Origin: Phoenix dactylifera
Taxonomy: Eukaryota; Streptophyta; Magnoliopsida; Arecales; Arecaceae
DNA length: 64,000 bases
Reading direction: 5' to 3'
NCBI RefSeq assembly: GCF_009389715.1
Contig: NC_052399.1
Coordinates: forward strand, 27,351,146 to 27,415,145
The notes under the pieces are model-generated. The model did no database searches and had not been told where the DNA came from. It saw nothing but the letters and a program-made list of their open reading frames with translations. Both the position numbers and the translations under genes were made by a program. Positions 83 through 46,300 of this stretch are shown here, in pieces; positions within the stretch are counted from its first letter, which is position 1; the number at the start of each line of letters is the position of its first letter.

Positions 83-1700
83 GTATGTTTGTGTTTGGTG
101 TTTGAGTGGAAAAGAGAGGTATGGGGAGAAAGCTGGGGTATGGGGGTTCTATTATACTTATTCTAATTGAGCTTATCTAGTGGATTTTACAGAATGGTGG
201 CTGGATGTGCATTATGCAGCATCAATGCTTCTTTTTATTAGTGCTACTTATGATCCTAATCCTTTAGTCATTATACCATTTAAGACAATTGCACCTGGAG
301 ATACTATTCTCCTGAAGGCTGCACAGCAATAAGCAGTCTCTAAAACTCGAACGAGGTTGGGTGGTTACTAGGTTGACATGCTTTGACCCTACTTTGGAGT
401 GTTAAATTACTTACTAAGTTGGTTTAGCTCACTCTCTCTTTTTCTCTGTTTTCAAATACATAATCATGAATTATGCGGGGTTTGGAGAAGTGCATGCGTA
501 GATTTGCTTTGGGGTACCTCATAGACTTAGTTATCTTTGTTTTTTTTTATGTTTAGTTATACTTCTTGTCTATTAGCTTATTGTTTGGTCATTTGGAGAC
601 TCTTATTTGGTTTGTTTACCCATAATGTTTTGGAGCATTGCAACTCTTTGTCATCTTGCATTAACTGTTTGCCGAGGACAATTTGTTATTTAGATTATTC
701 ATTATCATATTTTTGGAGGATTGCGTAAGCTATCTTTTTCTATTGAATTTGTTGAGATTTTATTTTGTTAATCAGGTAGCTTTGCATGCTTGTGAAATTT
801 GACTTGGAGGAATGCAATGCTTGTTACACTCTTGGCTTAAGGGTGTGACACTTCATCCCCAAAAGTGCTTTGATCAAGAGAAACTACTTGGTCAATTTCA
901 AAATAGTGAGTCAAGGTACTAAGCTGCATGATCCCCCATCCATATATCTAATTTTCTATCTTTTCTATTATTACTTTAATTTGAAGAATGGTCATTGGGA
1001 AATTAGGCCTATTAGATATGAAGGAAAATACGGGGTAGGAAACCACCTATTAGATAAATGTATGATCTTCTGTGGTTCTCACTTCTTTCTCTTTTCTTTG
1101 ATTTTTTTTAATAGGACTCTAACATGAACAATTCTAATTCGTAAAGAGAAGGATAAATGGAAGATCAAGGGTAAGAAAGATAAAATCCTATCTATGTCAA
1201 CTCATGGTTCAAAGTATTGGTTTATATCATGAAAGTGAGAGAATGTTTCAATAAATTGAAGTGATTAGGTGTTGTGTTTTGAGTGGGTTTTGTTTGCATA
1301 AATCAGTATTGACATCTCTTCAGGTCATCTACCTGTGATGCATGTTTGTGTAGTGCGGGATAGTGAAAAATAATGGGTGCAACCTAATAGACCTATGGTA
1401 TTTTCTCTAACATATACCTTTTTAGTAATGTCTAAATGGATGATTGCAGAGTCTTGAAGGTTAATTGACCCTTCGATATATATTGGAAAAGAATCAGAGT
1501 AAGAAATTCAGAAAAGAGCTAGACTCCAGAAACTCTTTTGTTTGTTTTATTTATAAATGTTAATTGAAAAGTAAATATGCTTCTTTCCTTAATTTTAGTT
1601 TGAGTTTAATGAAAATCTTCTGGTTGGTTGATGACCATTATATCCAGCACAATGTTGGAATTAGGAGAGGAAAGTAAAGAAAGCTTATAACCAGATATGT
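83..1700. other. Intergenic, no recognised feature
   Basis: AT-rich sequence with only short open frames of ordinary random length. I see no family motif, RNA gene or clear repeat structure here. Confidence 0.5.
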
Positions 1701-12721: not shown

Positions 12722-14442
12722 ATGAGGATCCGGAGGAGAGCTCCTCCCCCTTCCGTGTCCTCGGCTGCTCCTCCTCCTCGGACGCCAGATCCATCTCTCT
12801 TTCAACTCCAACCACCAAATAAAGGAGAGGGAGCAGAAGACAAGGGAGTTGGGGAAGGAGGAGAAGGTGAAGGGTTGCACCAAGATGGGGATCTACCAAT
12901 AGAACCCCGTGGGTGGGGGATGGATGCCATGAATGGGGATCCAGCTCGCTCCGGGCCGCATCCAACCGCAGGGAGGAGCAAGGAACGGAGCACCACACTC
13001 TTCTTTGCGCCCCCCCGTCCCACGCTCACCCATGCCCAGGTAAACCCACTCCCCTCCCCCATCTTCTCAACTGCAGCGCTCTTCTCTTTCTCTCCATCCA
13101 TCAGATCCCCTTCTTGCTTCTTTGTTCCTTGGTGGGTGCAATGTGGGGCTTGGAGCGGTTCATCTTGATCTCATGGGTGGGCTCTTTGGGGGCTGTGGTT
13201 GCAGGTCTTGAAGGAGGTCGAGGAGCAAGAGGAGATGGTGGATTCCAGCAAGAGATGGAATGCCCAAGTTAATAGCGACAAGAGGTAGGTATTAAAAAAA
13301 AAAAAAAAAACCCAAAATTCCCCTCTCTCTCTTTCCCTTTTGGAAGTAGCTCTTATATCTCTCCCATTCCTTGTGGTAAAAAAGAGGAAAAGCATCCCAA
13401 GTATTTGCGAATAGCATGCATGCCAGCTTGACCCATCATGACATCCCACCATCCCATCCATGCACCCATCCACACACTTGCACACACATCTGCACCTCTT
13501 TGGGTAGTTATTAGCTCACAACAAACTTGTGGTAGTCCATTGCACAAGAGTTAATAGTTGTGGAGTGTGGGCGATGGTGTAATAATAGGCTCTGGAGGAG
13601 ATTGGAAGTGGGGGTTCCTTGTGATGTGTTGCAAGTTTACTCCTCCACTCGAGTTCCTTCTTCCGCTATCTATTTGCTTCCCCAGGATTGGGAGCAGCTC
13701 GAGTGCACTGGTCTCGGAGGAGTCGAAGCATGGGGAGGCGGCGTTCCTGCCCAAGAAGCGGAGAGGAGGACATGATGATGATAATGGGAATGGGGATGGG
13801 AGATCGCAAGAGAAGCCAGTGGATAAAGAGAAGGCAGCGAAGTCGAAGGCAAGGGCAAAGGCTAGCAGTCAAGTGGAGAACAGTTGCACTAGTGCTAATG
13901 GTGGTGATAACAAGGGAGGTGATGGTGTTATGCTGAATGGGAATATTGGATCTAATGGGAAGAAGCGGCGGAGCCCGGCGGTGCTGATGGAGGGGTCGAG
14001 GTGCAGCCGGGTCAATGGTAGGGGGTGGCGGTGCAGGCAGCAGACGCTCGTCGGATACTCTCTCTGCGAGCACCATCTGGGAAAGGGGAGGTTGAGGAGC
14101 ATGAGCAGCGTGCGAGGTCAAGGCAGTAGCAGCAAGCCCAAGAAGAGCACCGAGGGAGGAGGGGATGGGGTGCTGCCCTCGTCTCCTACGCCGCAAGAGG
14201 ATGAGATGAATGCAAGGGATAAGCAGTCTCTGGCCGTGGATAATGAAGGGGAGGATATGGAGGAGAAGCAGGGAAAGAAGAAGAGGAAGAAGATCGGGAT
14301 GGTGAAGGCTCGAACCATCAGCAGTTTGCTCGACGAGACCAACCATTCAATGCCATCGACACTGTCGCCGACGTCAGCACCACCGCTGCCGCTGGAGCCA
14401 GCATCAGTGCAATCGCACAATGGGAGTGAAGCCATTCTATGA
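12722..14442 (+). CDS. WRC-domain nuclear protein (growth-regulating-factor-like zinc-binding domain, no QLQ seen)
   Basis: I assign three exons: 12722-13039, 13205-13284 and 13686-14442, giving 384 residues; all junctions are GT/AG and in frame. The start MRIRRRAPPP resembles the MRIR(K/R) start of plant WRC proteins and follows a CT-rich leader. The WRC domain is complete: Cys239, Cys249, Cys260 and His263 give the C-x9-C-x10-C-x2-H zinc ligands around NGRGWRC and CEHH. Basic clusters KKRR (about 156 and 225) and KKRKK near the C-terminus are likely nuclear localisation signals. Exon 2 encodes an acidic stretch (VLKEVEEQEEMVDS). No QLQ domain, which true GRF proteins use to bind GIF coactivators, is visible, so it is a GRF-related WRC-only protein. 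The family is thought to bind DNA; the target here is unknown. The exon 1 end is the least certain boundary. Confidence 0.85.
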
Positions 14443-22948: not shown

Positions 22949-23090
22949 AAAAGCTGTACACTGCAGCGTGGTTTCAAAACCAAGGCAAATGTGAAGGAAT
23001 AGTTATGTACCAACCACCTCTCTAATCCCAGCTTCTTCCTATGTACACATCAAATGGTGACCACTGTCTTGTGACCAACCTGGCGAACTC

Positions 23091-23815
23091 ATGATGAACT
23101 TCTCTCCATGTCCCCTCCCCTCTCCTCCCTTGCCGGCCTCGACGCCCTCTTCCTGGCCAACAGTAGCTTCTCCTCCATTCCGGAAGACTTCTTCTCCGGC
23201 CTCAACTCCCTCACCAACGTCTATCTCGACGCCAACCCCTTCTCCGCCTGGACCATCCCACCGTCCCTCCGCGACGCCTCCGGCCTCGTCGACTTCTCCG
23301 CCAACGGCGTCAATCTCACCGGCACCATCCCCGACTTCCCTGGCGTCGACTTCCCCAACTCTTACCGCCTGCCCCGCTCCGGCAACAACGTCACAGGCCC
23401 GATCTCCTCGAGCTTTGCCGTCCCCCGGCTCAGCTCCCTCTGGCTCAACAACCAGAAGGGAAGCGGCCTCTCGGGCCGCATCGATGTCATCCAGAACATG
23501 ACCTACCTCAAGCAGCTCCTGCTTACGTCCAATTCCTTCTCTGGCCCGATACCCGTTCCCTTCCGCCTCGAAAGTCTCTCTATGATTTGGATCTCCAGGA
23601 CGCAGTCCACAGGCCTCGTGCCGAGCGGGCTGACTTCTTTCAAATCTCTTCCAAGCAAGACGGCGATGCCCATGTTCAAATCTCTTCCAAGCAGAGGGCA
23701 TCGACGGTGTTCCCCGGGTGAATATTTTGCCCTTCACTGCCATGTTGTACAATTGGAGAGGAAACGATCCGTCCGATGGTTTGACGGCCATTGCGTGCGA
23801 TCCCAGTCGTAGTGT
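23091..23815 (+). pseudogene. Fragment of a TMK-type leucine-rich-repeat receptor kinase ectodomain
   Basis: The + frame from 23108 reads as plant LRR units: FFSGLNSLTNVYLDANPFS, then IPPSLRDASGLVDFSANGVN, LTGTIPDFPGVDFPN, LWLNNQKGSGLSGRIDVIQN and YLKQLLLTSNSFSGPIP. The IPPSL-DA, IPDF, SLWLN-QKG and IDVIQNMT features are diagnostic of TMK1-like receptor kinases, which act at the plasma membrane in auxin and growth signalling. Signal peptide, first repeats, transmembrane segment and kinase are absent. A 37-bp duplication (TTCAAATCTCTTCCAAGCA at about 23639 and 23675) and a frameshift break the end: past about 23690 the homology (PRVNILPF, NWRGNDPSDG, IACDPS) continues in another frame. It joins LTR-like sequence at about 23816, so it is a truncated, non-functional copy. 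Confidence 0.75.
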
Positions 23816-24789
23816 GATGAACCGGCTTCAAATTAACCGGCTGGGGTGGGTTGACCCGGACCAGACTCACGCGTGACTCGCACGTGCCGCAGAAGAACAA
23901 GCCTTTCGATGGGAGTACTAGGACGCTGGAATCGGGCAGGGTCCTAGGATTTTTCTATAATAGGAGCCTCTCCTCAAACAATTTCAAACCAAATTTTCCT
24001 CTGAACAACTGATTTCAAGTTTTTTGGACGAAATTTCTTGGGTCGTGAGATCCTGCCATTTTACCATCATTTTGGCTGCGAGATCTCACCGGCAGCAAAG
24101 GTAAGTTTGCTAAATATTTCTTTCTTCTTTTTTAGGGTCCTTGGGCCGTCGTTTTCTTTTGATTAGAACCGATGAGTCTTCGGAATCTTAGTGAATAGGG
24201 GCTCCCCTCTTCGGCTTGAATTTCCTATTTTTCGCCACCAAAATTGAGCTGTCCTTGGCGATGCCACTTGGATGGAGCCTCCCCTGTCTTCTTCTATTTA
24301 GAGAAAAAGAGAGAGAGAGTTGTGATAGCTCTCTTTTTTCTCTTCTTTCTCTCTCTCCTCTCTCTACCTTTCTCTTTCTTCTCTCTCACTTTGCTCTCAC
24401 CCTTCCTTTCTCTCTTTTTTCTCTTAAACTGAACCAAATGATTGATAAAAGGGATTTGAGAGACCTAGTGATGAACCTCTAGGGATTTGGGATTTATTCT
24501 ATAAGGAAGAAGTTATCTACACGAGAAGGCTTTCACTACAAAAAAAGCGATCTTTTCCGACGCTTTTTACATCCTTCACCGACGCTTATAAGCGACGGTA
24601 AAGATCCGACGGACGTTACACAAAGCGTCATGAAGCATCGGCGATACCTGAGTGGAAAAAAATTTTTCCGACGCTTTTGAAAAACATCATAAAAGGTTGA
24701 TTTTTAGCGACACTTTTTAGCAACGCTTAAAAGCGTCGCTAAAATCCTCAAAGCCGACGCTTATGGCCTTAAATTTTTTTAAAAAAATT

Positions 24790-24895
24790 ATTTTCCATCA
24801 AAGGCCTTGTTGTCCCCGATGGTTGTTGGCTTAATCTTCAAGGTGGACCGCCAGAGCTTCATGGCAGGAGGTTACTGGGAATTGCAAATCAAGAT
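24790..24895 (-). pseudogene. Second, partial copy of the captured fructokinase segment
   Basis: GACCGCCAGAGCTTCATGGC and surrounding bases (about 24843-24865) repeat the sequence at about 25029-25049, and TTACTGGGAATTGCAAA occurs at both about 24872 and 24951. On the minus strand it reads AMKLWRSTLK followed by TTIGDN, parallel to [10 protein letters not shown] and VTIGDKG in the longer copy but more damaged. This is a partial tandem duplication inside the element. Confidence 0.6.
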
Positions 24896-24945
24896 CGACA
24901 GCAAATGTCACCAACAAAACTCGTGATTGAAGAGCCAGTTTGATT

Positions 24946-25287
24946 CTAATTACTGGGAATTGCAAAAACCTTGGTGTAGTAGTTGCATCCCTTATCCCCG
25001 ATGGTGACCAGGAGAAGCTTCAGGGTGGGCCGCCAGAGCTTCATGGCAACCTCATCTTCCACGGAGGCCTCGCCGGTCAGGAACTCCAGCTCGGCATCGC
25101 TGATCTTAACCATGTCGGCCTGGTCCCATATGCTCATGATCTGCTCTCTAGCCTCTGCGGGCGACAGCCAAAGGGGCAGCCGGAGATTGGGGTCATAGGA
25201 GAGCAGAACACCAGCTTCCTTGGCCACCTCCAGTGCCGTCAAATGCGCCGATCTGCAGGGCTCCACAATCAAGAAAATGAAAAATAA
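24946..25287 (-). pseudogene. Captured fructokinase (pfkB family) fragment inside the CACTA element
   Basis: Fructokinase phosphorylates fructose with ATP in the cytosol. On the minus strand the frame contains [20 protein letters not shown], then [40 protein letters not shown] and [18 protein letters not shown]. These are consecutive plant fructokinase blocks from the middle of the protein, including the SYDPNLR substrate/sugar-kinase motif. The N-terminal pfkB signature and C-terminal ATP-binding GAGD motif are absent, so it cannot be active. Flanking sequence upstream of VEPC looks like intron, so the capture was of genomic DNA. Confidence 0.85.
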
Positions 25288-25881
25288 AAAATCATTAACA
25301 ATTAAAATGAAACTTTGGATGCCAAAAAGAACTAGAAAGAACATACCCATCCATGATCAAAACTCAAGAACTAGAAGGAAAAATTAAAAAATCAGAGCAT
25401 ACTCCTCTCTCACAATCTCCTTCTCCAGTCGCCTCCGAGCCCTTCAAATGTTCCTCGGGCCTGATCCAATTTCTCCTCTGCCACGAGCTGCGGCCTGGGC
25501 CTCCAATGAGGGGAGGGTGAGAGGAGGAGGAGTTCTTGGAGGGAGATGGGGATGCAATGATGGATGGAGAGGTGAGGGGGAGATGAAACTTACGAGATGG
25601 ATGGAGGCCTTGAAACTCACGAACCCGGCCTCCATTTGCCTGCATCCATGGCCGCTCATCTTGTCGGACCACAGCCCGCCCACCGCTACTGCCGTATCCT
25701 CAACTCGGAGGGGTAGAACATCTTTCTCGACGGCTACCGTCGCCCTAAAAGCTCGGAGGAGGAGGGGGATCCGAAGCTCGGTGGGCGGTTTAGGGGGAGA
25801 GGGGTAGCCAAGTTGGATCGGGGAGGAAGGAGGGGGGGGATGATGGCGGCTGGGTGAAAGGGTTAGGGATTGTTCTCCACG

Positions 25882-25884
<3 letters not shown>

Positions 25885-25931
<47 letters not shown>
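25885..25931. repeat. (GA)23 microsatellite within the CACTA element
   Basis: Uninterrupted GA run about 210 bp from the element's right end. Confidence 0.95.
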
Positions 25932-25932
<1 letters not shown>

Positions 25933-26500
25933 CAGGGGATCGAGGAGGAAAAAAAGGAGGGATCCACACGCTTTAGCCCTTTTTTTCCGCCTCCGACAAT
26001 TTAAAGCGTTGTCTTATTTAAATTTCACCCGAAGCTATACAAAAGCGCCGTCCAATTTTAGCCCTCACTCGAAATTTGTTGACGCTTTTTGTTAGCGTCG
26101 GCGGGAAAAAGTCGGCAAAAGCGTATTTTCTTGTAGTGTTTGAGGAGGGTACATAAAACCCTAGTTCGTAGTTTATGGTATGGGATTATACCTACTATTT
26201 GAGTTTATCCTCAGTAAAGATAAGAATCCCAATACTTGATCACTAGTACATATTTTTTTTATTGATTCATATCGCTAGATTTGTATTGTGGGATTTGTAT
26301 GGATGAATTCGGTTTTGTATAAGATGATATGGTTTTATATGATTTTCAGTGTGAGCATATTTATATATTTATTATATGTGAATATCTACTACTGAAAATA
26401 TGGCTATGAATTATTATTTTATTTATTTTGAAACTATCAGGAGTACACTGATTAACTAGAATCAATTAACTAGTATCAGGAGTACACTGAAAATATGGCT

Positions 26501-28740
26501 ATGAATTATTATATGGTAGTTAGTTTTGTGCTTAGCAATTGAATAGAAGTATCTTAATTCTAAGTGTTCAGACCTTCCATTCAGCTTTCAGAAGAAAAAT
26601 TTACTCTCTGCTCGGTACCACATTGATGCATGCTAGAGAGGAACATTCTTATGTGCCTTGCACCTGTGATGGATGATTTGTTGCAGTGAAATGCTTATTA
26701 AAGTTTAGAGTTTGTTTATTAATATCATCAACACAGAATGTTGTAATCCCATTTCAAGTGCATCAACTAGCAACTGCTTATTGTTTTAAGTTCAGTTTAA
26801 ACAATAGTGTCCTTATCAGGACTATGTTCCTTTAGGGTGCAAATACAGGGGAACACAATTTTAAGGAAAAATCTTTTCACAGTGACAAAAAACTGTGCTA
26901 TTCTGACAGTAAATTGTTAAATTGTTGCAGATATGAATCAAGTGCATTTGACCATAGAAGACATCTTTTGTTTTTTCTTTTGTATTTTGTGCATAGTTTG
27001 CAGTTCTATCAGATTATAGTACATGCATGCTGAGAGAGAGTACATCACAAATTGTGTGGATGCAGCCATATAAACAAAAAGTTGAAAAGTTTCGTAACTA
27101 TTCATGCTTCTATTTGATTTTTTTAATTTAAATATGAAAATTTGTTTCAAGTGAGTCCAGAATACTAATTGGTGACCATACTTTGGATCCATACCCTACC
27201 CATCCAAGAATTGGGTTGGATTCAGTTGGGTTTAGGTAAGATCGAGCCGAGTAAAGCCTGAGCCCAACTTGGAAATGTAGGGTCAAGTTGCCCTAGCCTT
27301 CAATCCTAATCCAACCTGATTTCAAATCAGACTGCTAACATATTTTGAAAGTAGGCCCAGCCATGTTCTCACATGAATCTCCTACCCAAAATTCAGAGAA
27401 AAGTCAAAGAAAATTGGAGAAAAATGTTATTCTTCCAACTCAAAATATCCCCCCTAACTTTGCTTTAAAATTGCTATCAAAAGTTGAAATAGAAACCAAA
27501 ACGAAGGAAAAAATTGTTCTTCCTCCTATTTGAACATGACACTCTCTTGTATCGCCTTCTCATTGGAATGCTATGTTATCAGTATGATATTGGTGCCAAT
27601 TGGACATGCCAAAACTAACGAACTTAAAAAAAAAAAAACTACTTGTATGCATCGGTATGGCCGATACAGACTAATACATAATATTTCAGTGTCTCTGCAT
27701 CCATACTGGTGTTAATTTCAAACTAAAATGATATGGTACTAATTGTACAATCCTAATTTCAAGCTGGAACGATATGATACTAATCGTAGCATCCCATGCT
27801 GTTGGTTTTTGAAGCTATGGTGGTGACTTAGATATGTGGATGACTTGTTCATATCACCTCTTCCATATGCAATTTCAAATTACTTTAAATGTTTCAATGT
27901 TCAAAGAAATGAATTAATATGTTAGTGCATAAAGGAATGTTATTACGATGTTGAGAGTTATTTCCCCTACTTTATTCCTTAAAACCAATGACAATTACCA
28001 ATCACTACAAAAAAGGTGACATATGAGAAATATTTACCATTGGATATAATCACAATATGTTTCTTGTATTTCCTGTTTGTTAAACAACAAAAGCATAATT
28101 TTAATCACCATAGGCCACAGACATGTAGAGGATAAGAATTACCATCTCATCTCAAGATATTACTTCCACAAGGAATTGTAGTAAATGCCTAAACATTGAA
28201 CATTTTATGGTGGTCTGCATGAAATGTCCCATCATGACATCACACATCCCTAACGACCGTTGGATGAGCAGGCGAGCCTACGCTCGGAGCTATCAGGATT
28301 CACGGCTCTTTACTTTTCAAAGCTAATTGCAGGATTCTTGGTCCGTTGATTACTTCAAACTCTACTGTTTGTTCTTGGCATCCTCAGGATCACGGCAATG
28401 GTGCGTGGCCATGTACCCTCAAACATGAGGTGGGTGAGGGAGGGTTCAAAAAAGGGGACCAGTTCTTTTACTCAGGATGAATTTGCTCACTTGGACCCCT
28501 TTGGCTGCAGGAATGATTCAGAGGGTCTGGAAAGAGAGAACTCAGAAAAGGGGGATTGAGGGAGAACGGAGCGTCTCCACTTTTCATTAAGGTTTGAGGA
28601 TTGGAGGGGAAGAGGGAGGGAGGCTTTTCTTTAGGTTGGAGGACGGGCTGAATTGTTTTAATTCATCACAGCAAATTTGTTTGATTAGGTTTCTCAAAAT
28701 TGTTTCCTATTTTTTGGACATGACATATAAGACTCATGCC
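26501..28740. other. Intergenic DNA, no gene recognised
   Basis: AT-rich sequence. Near 27200-27340 there is a GGTTGGATT/AACCCAAC-rich degenerate repeat similar to that at 4.9-5.4 kb. At 27993 CACTACAAAAAAGG resembles a CACTA element end, but a convincing partner end was not found. No coding region is supported. Confidence 0.45.
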
Positions 28741-28879: not shown

Positions 28880-31593
28880 GAGACCTAGTAACTAGGCCCG
28901 GTCTACTTGATCGGCCTAATCTTTTGGCCCAACGAAATGAAAAAAAAAGGGGGAATAGAGTTCCCATATTTGAGCCGGAAGAGGAGGCCGGCTCCGGCTC
29001 CTCTTTGACACCCTAGCCTCCATGTCTATTTAAAGGATCTCACCCCTCATTCAAGCCTCACCGTTGATCACCCAAGTTCGCCGTCGATTTCGAGATAATT
29101 TTTGAGTTTGTTGTCGTAGAGGATCTCAGGGTTTTCGCCGTCGATCCAGCCTGGAGAGCTCACTAGAAGTGAGTCTTGTTAGTTGGTCGTTCTTTCCTCT
29201 TTCTTTTGGTTGTTGGGCCACTGTCTCTTCTTTGAATCCAGCCGGCGAATCGCTAGATTGATCACGGGCAAAGTCTCCCCATTTTTTTTCTTTTATTTGG
29301 CCGACTACCATCAGGTGTGGCTTACCATCGGTGATTGTCGCCGCCTAAGGTGGCCTTCCTCCATTCAAAAAGGAGAAAGAAAGAGAGCCTCACTGTTCTC
29401 TCTTCTTCTCTGTTCTCTCTCCTCTCTCTATATTCTCTTTCTAGTTTTTCTCTTTAATTGGACTCTCTCTCTAGGATTGTTGGACCTGGTAAGAGCGTCT
29501 CTTAGTGACTTTTGGTCGGCTCTGGTGAAGGGCCTCGATTCATAGTCGGGCAACATGCCAGCCCCTACCACGGTGCTTACTGAACATGTTTGAATTTATC
29601 ATCATCAATCTTTATTGAGTTATCTATATCGTAGCCTGACTTTTGAGTTGACTTGCTAGACTAACTGGATCCAATCAATTCAAACACCCAGATGTTACTA
29701 CTTGGTTGACCCTAGTAGAGAGTTCTAGTCTAATATTACTGTGACCACCCATCGTGCTAGCTTTACTTAACCATTGTCGAGCACTACTAGACTCTATTAA
29801 TATGAATCTCTACTGTGTTATCTGTACCATGATCTGATTCTTGTTTTGTGATTTGACTAGTTGGATTGACTAGAGCAGACCGACCTGGATCATCGGACGG
29901 ACGCTGCTACCTAGTCGACCATGTCCGTCCCGCACCCAACTGTTGTCAACTACTATAGGACCTATAATCGATAATCCCTGATCTATTGCCTTGATTAGAT
30001 ATATGTTTCTTAATCAGATAAATTGAATTTCGTTGTACTGACAGATTCAAACAATGAGGCTTTCCTCTAGCTAGCCTTGTATATCTTTATATATGAATTT
30101 ACTTTCACAATTAACCCTAGTTTTGTATGAGACTTCAATCATCTGGACAAGAAGAAGCCCAATGAGATCTTATACTCTAGTTTCTCTCTCTTTTTATTTC
30201 ATTCTCTTGGTATTTTCTCTCTCTAGCTTGATCCAAAAAAATTTTTGTTAAAGAGGCTCAGAGCATAGTCCTAGATTGTTACGTGATGGTGAACTCTTTC
30301 GTGGATCAGTAGAGGGTTCTGGAATGTCGGATACCTCGAATAATTTTTCATTTGATTTGGTTTTGTAGGAGAACAATCTTTTGGATAAGAGGATATTGAG
30401 CAAGGTTTGTGCACCCTGGTTCATAGATCACAGTGTGGGCATGTAATTAGTCTATCTGGGTTGTCAGCAAAGAGCTAAGAATCCTTATACACTGACCTGC
30501 ATGATATAGATATTTTTGTACCTATAAATGTATTATATGCTAATGATCTAGATAAGTAAGAAGCAAAAATAATTTTATGATGGTTTCTGTATCAAATTAT
30601 ATTTTGATTATGTATGCTTACGATTAATTGTATGATGGATGCATATATGGGCATAACATACACTTGCATAATCAAACTAATAAATGTGGTGTTCTACATT
30701 AACAATGTTATATTGATTGCCTCGTCACGGGCGAAATACATGACCGTGGTTAGTGTAAAGTCAGAAATAAAAAGGAATTGATATGTCGATGTGAACTGAA
30801 CTGATTAAACAAGAACTTTAGGCTTATCTCATTACTATAGCAGGCCCTGTCACAGGCTGGAAATGTGATACTTTGGCAGACCCCATTATAAGCTAGAAAT
30901 GTGAAACTATAAAAGCCCCATCATAGGCTAGAAATGCGAAACTATAGCAGGCTTTGTCACAGGCGAGAAATGTGATACCTTGGCAGGCCCATCATAGGCT
31001 AGAAAATGTGATCGAGATTTGGCCCTAAGTCAAAAAGATAATTGATCTGGATCAAGTTAAAAAAGAATAAAATAAAAGATATTAAAAATATTAATAAATA
31101 TTTATGAAATATCGTATGATATATCGCTCTTGAGTGGCTAAATTTTTATTGATATTTGAGGTACATATTTATATTAATTATTCGAGCATTATTGGTAGCC
31201 GGTTTGTGATTTCATGATGTGTGCAATGATTTTTTATGGTTTTCAAATGTATATTATTATTGTGTTGGTGTGGATATGTGGGGATTCTTACTGTGCTATA
31301 AAGCTCACAGCTCCTTCCTCTTTCTTTTTTTCAGAGTTGTAGGTTGCATAATACATGGCTATAGTGGAGATCACGGGTGGAGGAGATGACTAGATAGAAC
31401 ATCACCAATACTAATTGGATAATAAAATTGTATAATTAGATTAACTTTGTTATTTGGCATGAATTGTCATCATTGTTGATTACGGATATTGAGATTGTAT
31501 TAAATTTTCAGGCCTAGCATATTTCTTAGAACTTTGCCCTAGAGAGTGTGTGACCGTATCGTGTGCCCAAACCTAGGTGCTGAGTTTGGGGCA
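28880..31593 (+). mobile_element. Long LTR of a retrotransposon (about 2.7 kb), + orientation
   Basis: The block starts GGCC-rich, has a TATA-like CTATTTAAAG near 29025 followed by a probable leader, a CT-rich tract (about 29395-29475), and a tandem repeat at 30838-31013 built on CATAGGCTAGAAATGTGA. It ends GTTTGGGGCA at 31593, immediately before a primer-binding site (31602-31613). Two features place it as the 5' LTR of a + strand element: the PBS to its right and the matching, opposite LTR at 33257. The right boundary is well placed; the left is approximate. Confidence 0.65.
30838..31013 (+). repeat. Short tandem repeat within the LTR (about 5 units)
   Basis: Units of roughly 35 bp carry GGC(T/G)(A/G)GAAATGTGA words followed by ACTATAGCAGGC or ACCTTGGCAGGC. 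The inverted LTR at 33.8-34.2 kb has about ten units of the same family. Confidence 0.8.
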
Positions 31594-31600
31594 TGATAAT

Positions 31601-31935
31601 GTGGTATCAAAGCTTAGGTTTTGGATTACTGAGGACTCTGATAGGAAAAACTATCAGAGCTTAGGTTTAAGATTATTGGGGATCATGATAGAAAAATTAT
31701 TAAAGCTTAGGTTTATGATCATTGGGGATCGTGATAGAATGATATCAGAGCTTAAGGTTTAAGACCATTAGGACTATGGTATAAGTAGCATCAGAGCTTG
31801 AAGTTTAAAAATATTGGAGATTGTAACAAAATTGGAATCAGATCATAGGTTTAGGATCATTAAGGATTGTAATAGATATGTATCAAATCTTGAGGTTATG
31901 ATTATTGCGGACATGACAATAGTAGCAGAATTAAA
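31601..31935 (+). repeat. Tandem array of about eight 45-47-bp units, each beginning with a PBS-like motif
   Basis: Motifs of the form TATCAGAGCTTAGG or close variants start at 31605, 31652, 31698, 31743, 31789, 31836, 31881 and about 31933, spacing 47, 46, 45, 46, 47, 45 and 52. Each continues with GTTTAAGATCATTGGGGATCGTGATAG-like sequence. The first unit is the genuine primer-binding site next to the LTR; later ones decay with distance. Confidence 0.85.
31602..31613 (+). other. Retrotransposon primer-binding site
   Basis: TGGTATCAAAGC differs by one base from the complement of the initiator tRNA-Met 3' end (TGGTATCAGAGC). It lies 8 bases after the LTR end at 31593, the expected position for priming minus-strand synthesis. 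Confidence 0.75.
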
Positions 31936-33237
31936 TTCAGTGCTTACGTGTAAGGTCATTAGGCATTGCGATAAAATGTAAGTATTAGGTTTGGTATTCG
32001 ATGAGTACGGAAGGACTAAATAAATTATCTTTGATCATGATAAGAGAGGTTAGACCTAAGGTAACTGCAGAAAGCTTAACCATGTCATACCATATTAGTT
32101 GGTTATACCATACCATGTTTATTGTTCAGATATTGTTTAAATGACTTGGATGTTTAAACTTGATATGGGTTAAGATATGATCGCACGTTTGGTTTTTGCT
32201 ACTAATTATTAGAGTGGGATTTATATACGGATCTTTCATAGTATTGGAGTGAGCTAAGAAAGAATTTTTATAATATTAGAAAGAGATATTCTTCAAGGTT
32301 AAAGCCATTTGTGGATTATATTTGGAATTGGCATATTTGGATACTGCAAATAGGTGAATTTATTTTGCAGAGTTAATTTTATATTTAAGGACATACATTG
32401 CATAAATTAGTGGAGAATTTTAATTATTTGAATTTTTATGTGTAGATTGGGCTACTAGGTGTTTCTTATAATTATTGGAGACTATTAGATGTGTTAATTT
32501 AAACTCAAGTCTAGGTTTATGATTTAAGCAGGGATTTTTTATCATTGTTGATGAAGCTATTAGTAAAATATCATATTGAGTAAAGATGTTTATATAAGTT
32601 ATATTATATATAGCTTTGAAGATAGATATTAAGAATTTTGGTGAAGAAAGATTTGAAGATTAATAGAGTTAATTCTACTCATAGTGATATTGGCTTAGAG
32701 ACTCCAAACCTATTGAATTTAGAGTAAATTATGTTAGAAGGAAGATCAATGTAGATTGTTTAATCAAATTGCTAAGAAAATCCAGGGTCAAATTAAACCT
32801 AGATATTTTGGACTCTAGAAAGGTTGCAAAGATTATGCAGTGACCATAAACTTGACTAATGGCTTGAGGGTTGGTTATGGTATGTACACTCTACATAAAT
32901 TGAAGACAGGGAGATCTAGACGTTCTGCTCTAGTTCTACTTGAAATTTTGAAATTTAGATTTTCTTAGCCTCAATATAAAGGGATATTTTGGTCAAAAAT
33001 TATTTAGCAGTTTTAGAGTATTTACTGGGTTAGATCAAAGTGCACAGAGGAAGAGTGGTGGCTTGGGTTATTTTGAAACTAGTTAGAAACAATAATATTT
33101 TCATCTGAAAGGTATTATAATGGAAGACTAAAGTTAGGTTTCTAGTAGAAAAGATTGTTGTTGATTCTATAGATAATTTGGAGGTAGTTATAAAATTTTT
33201 ACCAGTAGGTTCCATTTTAAATTTAGCAAGACCTAAA
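31936..33237. mobile_element. Internal region between two opposed LTRs, no coding motif recognised
   Basis: AT-rich sequence between the + primer-binding site at 31602 and the - primer-binding site at 33248. No gag, protease, reverse transcriptase or integrase motif is recognisable on either strand; the longest frame (33030-33215, -) is not a known protein. The inverted junction is not located. Confidence 0.4.
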
Positions 33238-34520
33238 CTCTTATATCACTTTGTTACGCCCCGAACCCAAAACTCCGATCCGACACATGACGGCCATACA
33301 CTCCCTAGGGCAGAGTCCTAGAGAATATACAAGACCTAAAACTATATTACAACCTCAATATCGTAATCAATAATGATCTCTGTTCATACCAAATAGCAAA
33401 GTTGTTCCAATTACAAATTTTGATCATCCAATTAATATCAGTGATGTTCTATTTCATCGTCCCTCTACCTGTGATCTCAACCATATCCATGTACTATGCA
33501 ACCTGTAACTCTGAAAAAGAGAAAGAGGAAGGGATTGTGAGCTTTACAGCCTAATAAGAATCCCCAAATACCTACACCAATACAATAATAATATAAGTTT
33601 GAAAAATGCAAGAAAATGTCACACACATCATGAAATCACAAATCGATTAACAATAATGCTCGAATAATCAGTATAGATATATATAAATCAAATATCAATA
33701 GAAATCCAGCCACTCAAGAGTGATATATCATATGATATCTCATAAATCTTCATTAATACTTTCAATGCTTTTCATTCCATTTCTTTTTAGCTTACCCTGG
33801 ATTAATTATCTTTTCAACTTGGGCCAAATTCCGGCCACGTTTCTAACCTGTGACGAGACAATCAATATATAGTATCACGTTTTCAGCATGTGACAGGGCA
33901 AACAATAGCATCATATTTCCAACATGTAACGAGGCAAACAATAGTATCACATTTCCAGCCTATGACGGGGTAACCAATAGTATCACATTTCCATCCTGTG
34001 ACAGGGCAACCAATAGTATCACAATTCCAGCATGTGATGGGGCAACCAATAGTTTCACATTTCTAACCTGTGTGGGACAAATAGTAGTTTCACATTTTTA
34101 GCCGTGATGGGGCAAACAGTAGTTTCACTTTTCTAGTCTATGACGAGGCAAACAGTAGTTTCACATTTTTAGTCTATAACGAGGCAAACAGTAGAAAAAA
34201 AGATAGAAGAAGAAAGAAGAGAAAGAAACCTTCTCTATCCTCTCTTCACGATTGGCCATCTCCTTCTCCTTTCCCCTCACAAGTCCAAGGGGTGGTGGCC
34301 ATGGTGGCCCGACTCCCCCCCCCCCCCCACCACTCAATGGCGGCCACTGTCCCGGCCAAACTAGCAATCGAATCACGGCAAAAGAACACCAAAAGAATGA
34401 AAGAAAAAATCAAAATAGAGAAACCTCTCGTGGCTAAATTCGGCAGCCAATGGCTCTCACCAGGCCGTCAATGGTAGTCCGAGGGTCGGAAAAGAAATGG
34501 AGCAAGTATTTTGTTTTTAT
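33238..34520 (-). mobile_element. LTR of the same family in inverted orientation, with its own primer-binding site
   Basis: Read on the minus strand, the LTR ends ...GGGTTCGGGGCG at 33257 and is followed by TGATATAAGAG (33248-33238), a degraded primer-binding site. Matching landmarks to the LTR at 31.6 kb include the CTAGGGCAGAGTCCTAGAGA / TTGCCCTAGAGAG segment, the AGCTTTACAGC / TATAAAGCTCACAG segment and the short tandem repeat. The complement of a CT-rich tract lies at 34195-34270. The outer (right) boundary is uncertain. Confidence 0.6.
33838..34195 (-). repeat. Tandem repeat of about ten ~36-bp units in the inverted LTR
   Basis: Units run ATAGTATCACATTTCCAGCC then TGTGACGGGGCAACCA with small changes. 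The unit is mostly a multiple of three, which is why an 83-codon frame opens at 33850-34101 on +; this frame is repeat-derived, not a gene. The sister LTR has about five units. Confidence 0.85.
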
Positions 34521-43395: not shown

Positions 43396-46300
43396 TTAGC
43401 AAACTCCATTAGTCTTCTTACGCTCAACAAGCCGCCTCCAGTATGTAGTGATCTCCTGCTGTGTCTCCAAAATACTCTTCTTAAGAACAGTACCCTCAGC
43501 ATTCTTTACAGGTGTTACATGGGCAATGGTGATGGGCTGGCTTGGAACAGCGTCAAGCTCTCCCAGGACCTTCTTGATGTCTGAAATGAGGCGTTCGGCA
43601 AGGCTCCTGCTGAAGTCCTCCCTGATCACGACACGAAGGACGGCCACGTGCTCGGCATCATGTGGCATTGTGTATGCAGGGATTATCCATCCAAACTTCC
43701 TCATGTTCTCTGCTATCTGAAAGACTGTGTGCTTGCTGCTGTCCTTAAGCGAGAATGCAACAAGAGGAACACCAACTTCCTTCGAGACAATATCAAACCT
43801 TCCCATCTTCTCGAGGCCTTCCCTTAGCACTCTTGCATTTTCCATGCAATTTTTCATGATATTCTTGTAGCCCTAACATATAACATGGTACAGATTTAGT
43901 GGCTTATTTAAGGAAAAAGAACAGTCTATATAAGAAAAAAGTATGATATAAGAACTATCATGAGTTGACACAGCCATAGGTACACGCGTATAGCCTTGTT
44001 CTAAACTAAGCACAAGTAGGTGATATTAGTTCCAGCATATCAATGTTCCAGTCTATATACCCATGCACTGATTGTTCATCGCGGCAGAAGAGAGACAATA
44101 CGTTGATATAGTAAAAAAAATAAATAATTTTCCAAACGATTAGAACAAATCAATAACTACGCAGCAGCACAGCAGAGTATCTTAACCTTCCATACTCTGC
44201 TGCAAATGAGGAAATAATTGTATTTGATTTAGGATCAAGTTTGCTTTCATTTGCAGATCGATCGAAATTTGAACTTGAGAAGGAAATTCAATTTTGCTAT
44301 TGGCTTATTTGTTCCTTAAAGATATATCAAGATCCTTGACCAAAAGATGCCTTGGAGGGTTACCCCGAGGTTGTAACCAATATACATCTCCCTGCTCCAT
44401 ATCTAACCTTCAGTTCTAGGGGAGGCGTCACAATCTCCAAATAAACCTTCACGAAGAGTTTCATGCCAATTAAGAGGGTCAACTTCAGGTGCAGAGCCGG
44501 ATGTGGTGAACTGTCTGGAACCTTGATGGATTTTTATTATTTTTTTTAACCTTGATGGGGTAAGGTTCATTGGCTGACAGTTTAATAAATTACTTAGGAA
44601 AACTGTGCTTATTAGGGAATTTGTATGACCATTTCTACCAAACATATACACATTGAAACAGAATCCAGACCAGACAATTTACTTTTACCATTGAAACGAA
44701 ATTAATATCCATAATTACCACATAGTTGGTTAGAGAAATAGTTAAAGTTCTCATGTTACCTCAAAGCCCAAGCGCAAGAACTGGTAGTACTGTGCAATAA
44801 TCTGACTTGAACCTGCAACAATGAAACAGACTCCGTGAAGTATTTCGTTGAGAAACTAATATGACATAATGCAACATTACATGCATATCCAAATAAGATA
44901 GGTGAAAATACAAACACATGATAATATTCACCTTTAGAAAAATTGAGGGTAAAAGTAGGTTGATCTGCCCCAAGATAGTTTATATGGAAAATGAGCTCTT
45001 CAGGCAAATCTTCCTTGCTCCTCCAAACAACCCAACCAACTCCAGCATAAACAAGACCATATTTGTGGCCACTAACATTTATGCTCTTTACCAGTGGTAG
45101 CCGAAAATCCCACTCCAGCTGTGGATAGAGGAAAGGAGCTATGAATCCGCCACTCGCAGCATCAACATGAATAGGTGTATCCCACCTGCAGGGCATGGTA
45201 AATATGATTCCATCTCTCACAAACATTAGTCCTATGAATAAATCATCACTAGATGCAAACAACAGGTATGGTTTTGATCTGAAGTTCAGAAAATTAATTT
45301 ATTGGGCTATATCCATAAATGGGTAAAAAATACTGTAACTTTCACTTCAATGACAAAAACTTATCATCAAGAGCTAGCATCCTAGAGCAATCTCAAGATG
45401 CTCAACCACTCTAGAAATGGATATGGCTGAAATGCCACAGGTGTCGCTGTCTTGAGAGGATCAATCAATTCAAACAGCATCCTTGGTTCACCTAGTTGAG
45501 CTGTCAACAACCATTGGCTACTAGGAATACTGACTGGTCATTCGATTGACAAGTAGATATACAAATAACTGTTTTAAAATGCATCCTGCAAGACTGTGCA
45601 TGCATCCAGAATAAGCAAATGAAGGTCTAGTCACAACACCATGTTGGGCTGCTACATAGTGGGTCGTTTGGTACCCAAAAAGGCCCAAGTGGCAAGCATA
45701 TGCATTCTGGTCCTATGCTGGTAAAAGGCATATCCTCCTCCTCCCTCTCCCTCTCTCAGATTTGTTTACTGGAAATTTGATCATGCATAAAAAGGGTACT
45801 ATTTTTTTAGTCAGCATATCATTCTATAGTCTCTCAAACAAGAGTGAAAAGTACATACCCTATTTTTCATATTTTTCTTGTCCAAGTATATACTTTGATT
45901 TATTTTATTAAATATTTGATCTATGTTCTGCATATAAACTGTGTATTCAGCTTTTTCATACAATGACCGCTCTTAAAACCTTGACATGAATCAATCCACT
46001 GCTTTCACTTAACGACTTTTAGGTCATGCACCACTGATCATTCAAACAGCGGTCTATGAATATATAGGTAGGCAAGCATACCCAGTTCACAGCAAATTAT
46101 TACATGATTAAGCAATTATTATGGTCCCTTTGACAATAGACTGGTTCTCTGGTATACAAGCAAAATCGCTTACCCTGTTTCCTTGTTCTTCTGTGTAAGC
46201 AGCTGGTTCAGTAGTTTAACATCTTCAAACTCTCCAGTGAGAGTAGAACCCAAAATGGCAGCAACACAGATGGTATTCTCATCCACCATCTCCACAGCCT

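Follow-up and report, generated by a model that had tools for sequence, protein, structure and literature searches.

A Pack-CACTA element of the date palm with fructokinase DNA and a second gene-like piece, very probably captured stepwise

We analysed a window of 64,000 nucleotides of the date palm genome (C8:27351146-27415145) and compared it with the whole genome, which was searched as 773,078,369 bases in 2391 contigs. The window contains gene-like stretches for a WRC-domain protein (13558-14442, plus strand) and a cytochrome P450 (35314-36976, minus strand), and exons of a pyridoxal-dependent decarboxylase (43396-45298, minus strand). An open stretch at 23075-23812 on the plus strand resembles the LRR part of a receptor-like protein, according to matches with weak LRR models. 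It is apparently a fragment, situated about 0.7 kb from the element described below, and may be a pseudogene or a captured fragment. The stretch of 1605 bp at positions 24534..26138 is very probably a non-autonomous CACTA element of the Pack-CACTA kind, in which pieces of genes have been captured stepwise.

The left end of the element is formed by the terminal inverted repeat CACTACAAAAAAA (24534..24546, plus strand), and the right end by its partner at 26126..26138, which reads CACTACAAGAAAA on the minus strand. The two ends are 13 bp long and identical at 12 of 13 positions. They are bordered by copies of the target-site duplication TTT at 24531..24533 on the left and 26139..26141 on the right. 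A search for CACTACAA[AG]AAA with an inverted partner within 20 kb recovered one pair in the window and none in 300 first-order shuffled windows. A lone CACTACAAAAAAG at 28003-28015 (plus strand) had no partner in the pair search and is probably a chance occurrence or a solo end. The left subterminal region (24547..24800, plus strand), which is common to the relatives of the element, contains GACGCTT repeats in both orientations; the right subterminal region extends over 25976..26125. In total GACGCTT occurs seven times in the element, six times near the left end and once near the right end, while 1000 simulations gave a mean of 0.147 and a maximum of 2.

Elements of the CACTA (En/Spm, DTC) superfamily have terminal inverted repeats starting with CACTA, a 3-bp target-site duplication and subterminal repeats in both orientations, and are mobilised by a transposase of the TNP2 type (PF02992). 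The date palm element displays the CACTA-starting inverted ends, the 3-bp duplication and the subterminal repeats in both orientations. No transposase was detected within its 1605 bp: four frames were scanned with Pfam, and the sole one past the cut-off matched PfkB. The longest stop-to-stop frame of the element comprises 189 codons. The first-pass annotation of this DNA had proposed a CACTA element with inverted termini, subterminal repeats, a TTT duplication and no transposase; our analysis bears out each of these points and leaves its coordinates unchanged. Movement of the element would have depended on a CACTA transposase encoded at another locus and acting in trans. The genome is rich in PF02992 transposases: 150 of 534 candidate places were scored, and all those listed are matches. 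When the 150 listed places were compared by eye with the listed matches to the element ends, none lay within about 10 kb. At two near-identical loci a PF02992 match lies 11-12 kb from an end, and we rejected it as a partner because that end belongs to a complete element of 1.38 kb.

The right flank of the element is part of a dispersed repeat, and five relatives of the insertion site were fetched. Four of them (L078-L081) produce one alignment across the joined flanks, with 69-71% identity and a single TTT; the alignments of L078 and L079 are identical, and these two may be one locus counted twice. The junction in L080 reads GGCTTTGAG, as in the joined flanks. The fifth relative, L082, aligns in pieces only. 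The relatives with a single TTT directly demonstrate both the insertion and the duplication of the target site. The first-pass annotation had considered that relatives might contain a full fructokinase gene at this locus; four of the five site relatives are without the element. We also considered that the fructokinase DNA might be a pseudogene of local origin, bracketed by CACTA-like ends by chance. Nothing favours this explanation except the presence of the fragment itself, and it is contradicted by the shuffled windows, where no such pair of ends arose by chance, by the insertion site being empty in relatives, and by several loci having the same cargo with the same ends. The probability of chance bracketing is negligible.

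The fructokinase DNA lies on the minus strand of the element. Its similarity to the family is supported by the Pfam PfkB model (E 4.8e-13, profile positions 140-239 of 302) and by matches to solved structures, which are fructokinase and fructokinase-like chains. A fructokinase gene on C1 matches the fragment with 93.3% identity over 389 bp, without gaps across the exon/intron border. These 389 bp comprise 304 bp of exon 2 (25273-24970) and, behind it, 85 bp of intron 2 (24969-24885), which begins with the GT donor. The exon 2 fragment represents 304 of the 333 bp of the C1 exon and its frame is open. It differs from the C1 gene at 18 of 304 sites, and the intron 2 part differs at 8 of 85 sites. 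Upstream of the exon on the minus strand lie 45 bp of intron 1 (25327-25283), 96% identical to the C1 gene over this length. The 3' end of exon 2 occurs a second time, in degenerate form, at 24810..24866, also on the minus strand; these 57 bp are 79% identical to the C1 gene. A fructokinase paralogue on C7 matches the fragment at 85%.

The C1 gene is apparently intact. Four exon-like frames match PfkB, the fourth falling just under the Pfam cut-off; the exon borders were placed using reading frames and GT/AG. The fragment thus corresponds to the middle part of a fructokinase gene with intron sequence, as the first-pass annotation had described it, and the search for a parent which that annotation had proposed leads to a full gene elsewhere in the genome. 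Two further components, the degenerate copy of the exon end (24810-24866) and the gene-like piece from C9 (25344-25583), go beyond the earlier description. In the C1 gene the GAGDAF stretch is located in exon 3, and the window element has no exon 3. We take the GAGD stretch to be the catalytic motif of fructokinase in the PfkB family. A complete PfkB domain with GAGD is not present in the window fragment. Because the GAGD stretch is absent, the window element, judged by its coding content, cannot make an active fructokinase, and no active kinase is expected from the fragment. A comparison with bacterial fructokinases recovered five relatives among 55 pattern stretches, with a best identity of 39%, and showed no more than that the fragment is distant from the bacterial genes of the collection compared.

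The fructokinase piece adjoins a second captured piece in the same orientation. Element positions 811-1050 (window 25344-25583, minus strand) match a locus on C9 in three pieces with 90-93% identity. At this locus there are two open frames, of 200 and 252 codons, which differ in reading frame, with an intron-like stretch behind them. Pfam gave no match for the 200-codon frame, and no match to the element ends was found at the C9 locus. The locus is presumably a gene that uses the 200-codon frame, and the captured fragments would then represent exon 1 and the start of an intron, with two internal exonic deletions. The gaps between the pieces were also considered as introns lost in the course of retro-capture. 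We rejected this, as the gaps are exonic deletions with shared words of 2-3 bases and no GT-AG borders. Matches to the C9 donor extend over 516-529 bp, with 84-93% identity, in six loci free of fructokinase DNA; there are two near-identical pairs among the six. Between the C9 fragments and the right subterminal region lies an inner right module (25584..25975) of unassigned origin, which is common to the relatives of the element and includes a GA microsatellite at 25885-25931.

A search of the genome with the element yielded 91 matches in the best 40 of 812 candidate places. These 40 scored places comprise the element, two fructokinase genes and 37 related loci, and the sequences of all 37 were retrieved for comparison. 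Under a strict search, 15 of the 37 related loci have CACTAC...GTAGTG ends together with perfect 3-bp duplications, and the duplicated words among these 15 are of 10 different kinds. The remaining related loci have altered ends, are truncated or are of unclear status by the strict search. The first-pass annotation had recommended looking for sister copies with these termini and had named their absence as a refutation; the same ends do recur at other loci. In five pairs the two loci are almost the same, flanks too, and may be duplicates created by the assembly; the number of loci therefore does not equal the number of insertions. The left end alone, used as a query, gave 711 first-look candidates in the genome, of which the best 40 were scored, and the true family is larger than 37 loci. 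A 24-base pattern of the left end, with up to two mismatches allowed, occurs 24 times in the genome, and its reversed control does not occur. Fructokinase DNA is present in 19 of the 37 related loci and in one of four further loci; the 19 include two pairs of near-identical loci whose flanks match as well, and these may reflect duplication in the assembly. The element thus combines the features of Pack-CACTA and other Pack-TYPE elements: it has no transposase of its own, it carries a fragment of a host gene with a fuller parent elsewhere, and its cargo exists in multiple copies.

The order of the two captures can be read from the relatives. In three loci free of fructokinase DNA (L028, L039 and L046), the left subterminal sequence leads via ATGATTTAGG to DNA of the C9 intron. 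L042 has the identical ATGATTTAGG, and there the end of fructokinase exon 2 comes next. At the other border, in L042 and L035, the C9 intron passes through GTTCTT and a few filler bases into fructokinase intron 1. The same two anchors are separated by 125, 132 and 132 bases in the three fructokinase-free loci, against 365 in L042 and 351 in L035; L041 has no anchor pair and is absent from this comparison. The sequences point to stepwise capture, with the C9 piece acquired first and the fructokinase piece after it, because the C9 DNA is contiguous in the free relatives and is not easily derived from copies bearing fructokinase DNA. The same jump between intron 1 and the exon is found in the window copy and in 14 relatives that keep the intron 1 piece and the exon start, and therefore the fructokinase DNA was probably captured a single time.

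In the tree built from the right ends, seven fructokinase-free rows lie on one side of a branch with an SH-aLRT of 96. Seven other fructokinase-free rows are placed among the bearers, and these loci match the element in its right part only. The fructokinase label needs three changes in each end tree, and the starred branches force at least two in the right-end tree; a single gain therefore requires later losses. We read the three changes as one probable gain and two losses. Comparing the left-end and right-end trees as a detector of hybrid origin was discarded, since the trees are too weakly supported for this. The left-end tree does not separate the possible histories of the label. One genome keeps both donors, precursor-like relatives, relatives that postdate the capture and several states of erosion, and the borders of the capture are readable directly against a precursor-like copy.

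We propose the following sequence of events. An ancestral element would have held the C9 piece, with exon 1 and the start of the intron. About 130 bp of the C9 intron inside this element would then have been replaced by fructokinase DNA from C1, comprising intron 1 and exon 2. Intron 2 is also present in part of the lineage, and the start of exon 3 in one fetched copy. Transposition to many places would have followed, accompanied by erosion through deletions and C-to-T or G-to-A changes. The ancestral element itself was not found among the fetched relatives. The replacement probably took place when a gap within the element was repaired ectopically, with template switching. We prefer gap repair because both fructokinase borders sit inside one pre-existing element, because one border displays the six-base shared word GTTCTT together with a short filler, and because the terminal words of a second element have not been left inside. 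The six-base match at the border could be due to chance.

Alternatively, the fructokinase DNA could have been gained by fusion, with a pair of related elements inserted close together in the fructokinase gene, their inner ends lost and their outer ends moved as a hybrid. Fusion has been put forward for Pack-CACTA and other Pack-TYPE elements in the parts of the literature cited here, where maize and rice examples include the addition of a second gene piece (PMC8903248; PMC13317346). The borders seen in the date palm family fit this model poorly: both fall in one pre-existing structure bearing C9 DNA, from which just about 130 bp are missing, and the complementary deletions of two elements would need to leave almost exactly one. 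Inner CACTAC or GTAGTG words occur in none of the 16 end-bounded elements (0/16), and 14 of the 16 are without any inner piece resembling an end. The other two, L021 (425-442) and L023 (423-440), have an inner piece of 18 bp similar to the right subterminal region. On balance, fusion is an unlikely source of the fructokinase DNA. We note that an insert in exon 2 is common to L021, L023 and L025, and that the 18-bp piece may have originated as filler copied from within the element.

Gap repair, the route we favour, may have acted more than once. The duplicated end of exon 2 and a repeated 17-bp intron start found in copies of the element suggest additional template switches into the fructokinase gene. 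Neither the duplicated exon end nor the 17-bp repeat is present in L042 and L035, which keep more of intron 1. They look like an earlier state, although the reverse order, through deletion between short repeats, is possible. More generally, we tentatively suggest, as an idea that is plausible but falls short of probable, that CACTA cargo grows by repeated internal ectopic gap repair. The captured exon 2 would have provided homology back to the living C1 gene, allowing intron 2 and exon 3 to be added, and the duplicated exon 2 end and 17-bp intron start would be the scars of this process. If true, captured genes could be enlarged under the guidance of homology, by a route distinct from the fusion of neighbouring elements.

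The date palm element adds to the known class of Pack-CACTA elements, and its record of stepwise capture is unusually complete. The literature cited here offers two accounts of capture by elements of this type: neighbouring insertions that fuse (PMC8903248), and repair of gaps from a template or template switching, as discussed in animals (PMC8277862). The Pack-CACTA and Pack-TYPE elements described there (Catoni et al. 2019; Gisby and Catoni 2022, PMC8903248) are similar to ours in having CACTACAA-type ends, host coding DNA and no transposase, and in carrying pieces from more than one gene through stepwise additions (PMC8903248). The date palm case differs from that account, as far as the cited sections go, in that the DNA of the second gene would have replaced an internal stretch of a gene-bearing element. 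It differs also in its host: the word "palm" occurs 0 times in the main text of PMC8903248.

The soybean element Tgm-Express (Zabala and Vodkin 2007, PMC1947982) is likewise a CACTA element with fragments of host genes, and is reported in the part cited to generate new exon combinations by alternative splicing, whereas the date palm element is known from DNA alone. The Pack-TIRs of animals, attributed in the cited part of PMC8277862 to gap filling or to fork stalling and template switching, resemble it in having shared words and filler at their borders, in capture inside an existing element, and in the later spread of multicopy cases by transposition; they are found in animals and belong to other element types. 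That source gives 59.8% of 281 unique Pack-TIR cases as lying on the chromosome of the parent (PMC8277862). The donors here, C1 and C9, are on contigs other than C8, which holds the window. A maize CACTA element that carries a UDP-glucose pyrophosphorylase gene (PMC4663468) also represents capture of a sugar-metabolism gene, according to the portion cited; a 7.9-kb gene resides there in a 9.8-kb element, in contrast to the exon fragment here. Among the matches listed from open-licence PubMed Central, none concerned this element, the capture of a fructokinase by a CACTA element, or a Pack-CACTA element of date palm.

The exon could be aligned in 18 copies, namely the window copy and 17 others; L033 and L044, which have short pieces only, were left out. 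Only the window copy retains all 304 exon sites without gaps or stops. Each of the other 17 has at least one exon deletion, 14 of them sharing a deletion of 21 bp, and the same TAG is present at codon 44 in nine of the 17. Of the changes from the state common to C1 and C7, 143 of 267 are C-to-T or G-to-A, counted as changes that are not independent. Such changes are expected in methylated, silenced DNA. Among 15 other copies (L021 showed no private changes, and the near-duplicates L031 and L032 were excluded), 56 of 81 private changes are nonsynonymous, compared with 53.9 expected. For the window copy the count is three of seven, compared with 4.7 expected (P 0.17). The substitutions look neutral by these counts, with no apparent sign of selection at the protein level, and the window copy is too short to exclude weak constraint. 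A first polarisation had assigned five nonsynonymous and four synonymous changes to the element branch, with two sites ambiguous; selection on the fructokinase frame was rejected when, with sister copies as the reference, the private changes fitted the neutral expectation. An open frame across a captured exon, such as that of the window copy, is no proof of function: the sister copies evolve neutrally.

At three synonymous positions (codons 11, 13 and 48) the window copy has the state of C7 and not that of C1 or of most copies; the C1 state is found there in 16/16, 16/17 and 9/10 other copies. We considered that the C7 paralogue might have converted the window copy, and set this aside, the sites being too few and coincidence being possible.

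The captured exon might nevertheless have been recruited, with fusion transcripts or small RNAs from the copies regulating the C1 fructokinase gene; the first-pass annotation had raised possible chimeric or antisense transcripts against the parental sugar kinase. The two captured pieces share one orientation, and the C11 copy L018 has an open frame of 261 codons (805-1587, plus strand) that runs through the shared module, C9-derived DNA and fructokinase DNA. Exact 21-mers in common with C1 exon 2 number 87 of 313 in the window copy and range from 2 to 79 in the 19 other bearers. These shared words would indicate a capacity for silencing only. Recruitment is difficult to reconcile with the exon deletions in all 17 other aligned copies, with the TAG shared by nine of them and with substitutions that look neutral. 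In addition, the C11 open frame reads its C9-derived DNA in a frame other than the 200-codon one presumed for the C9 locus. On balance we consider recruitment very improbable.

Elsewhere in the window, the stretches at 30833-31623 and 33227-34018 are inverted copies of one another. They are rich in tandem repeats, lie 1.6 kb apart and are 75% identical over about 800 bp.
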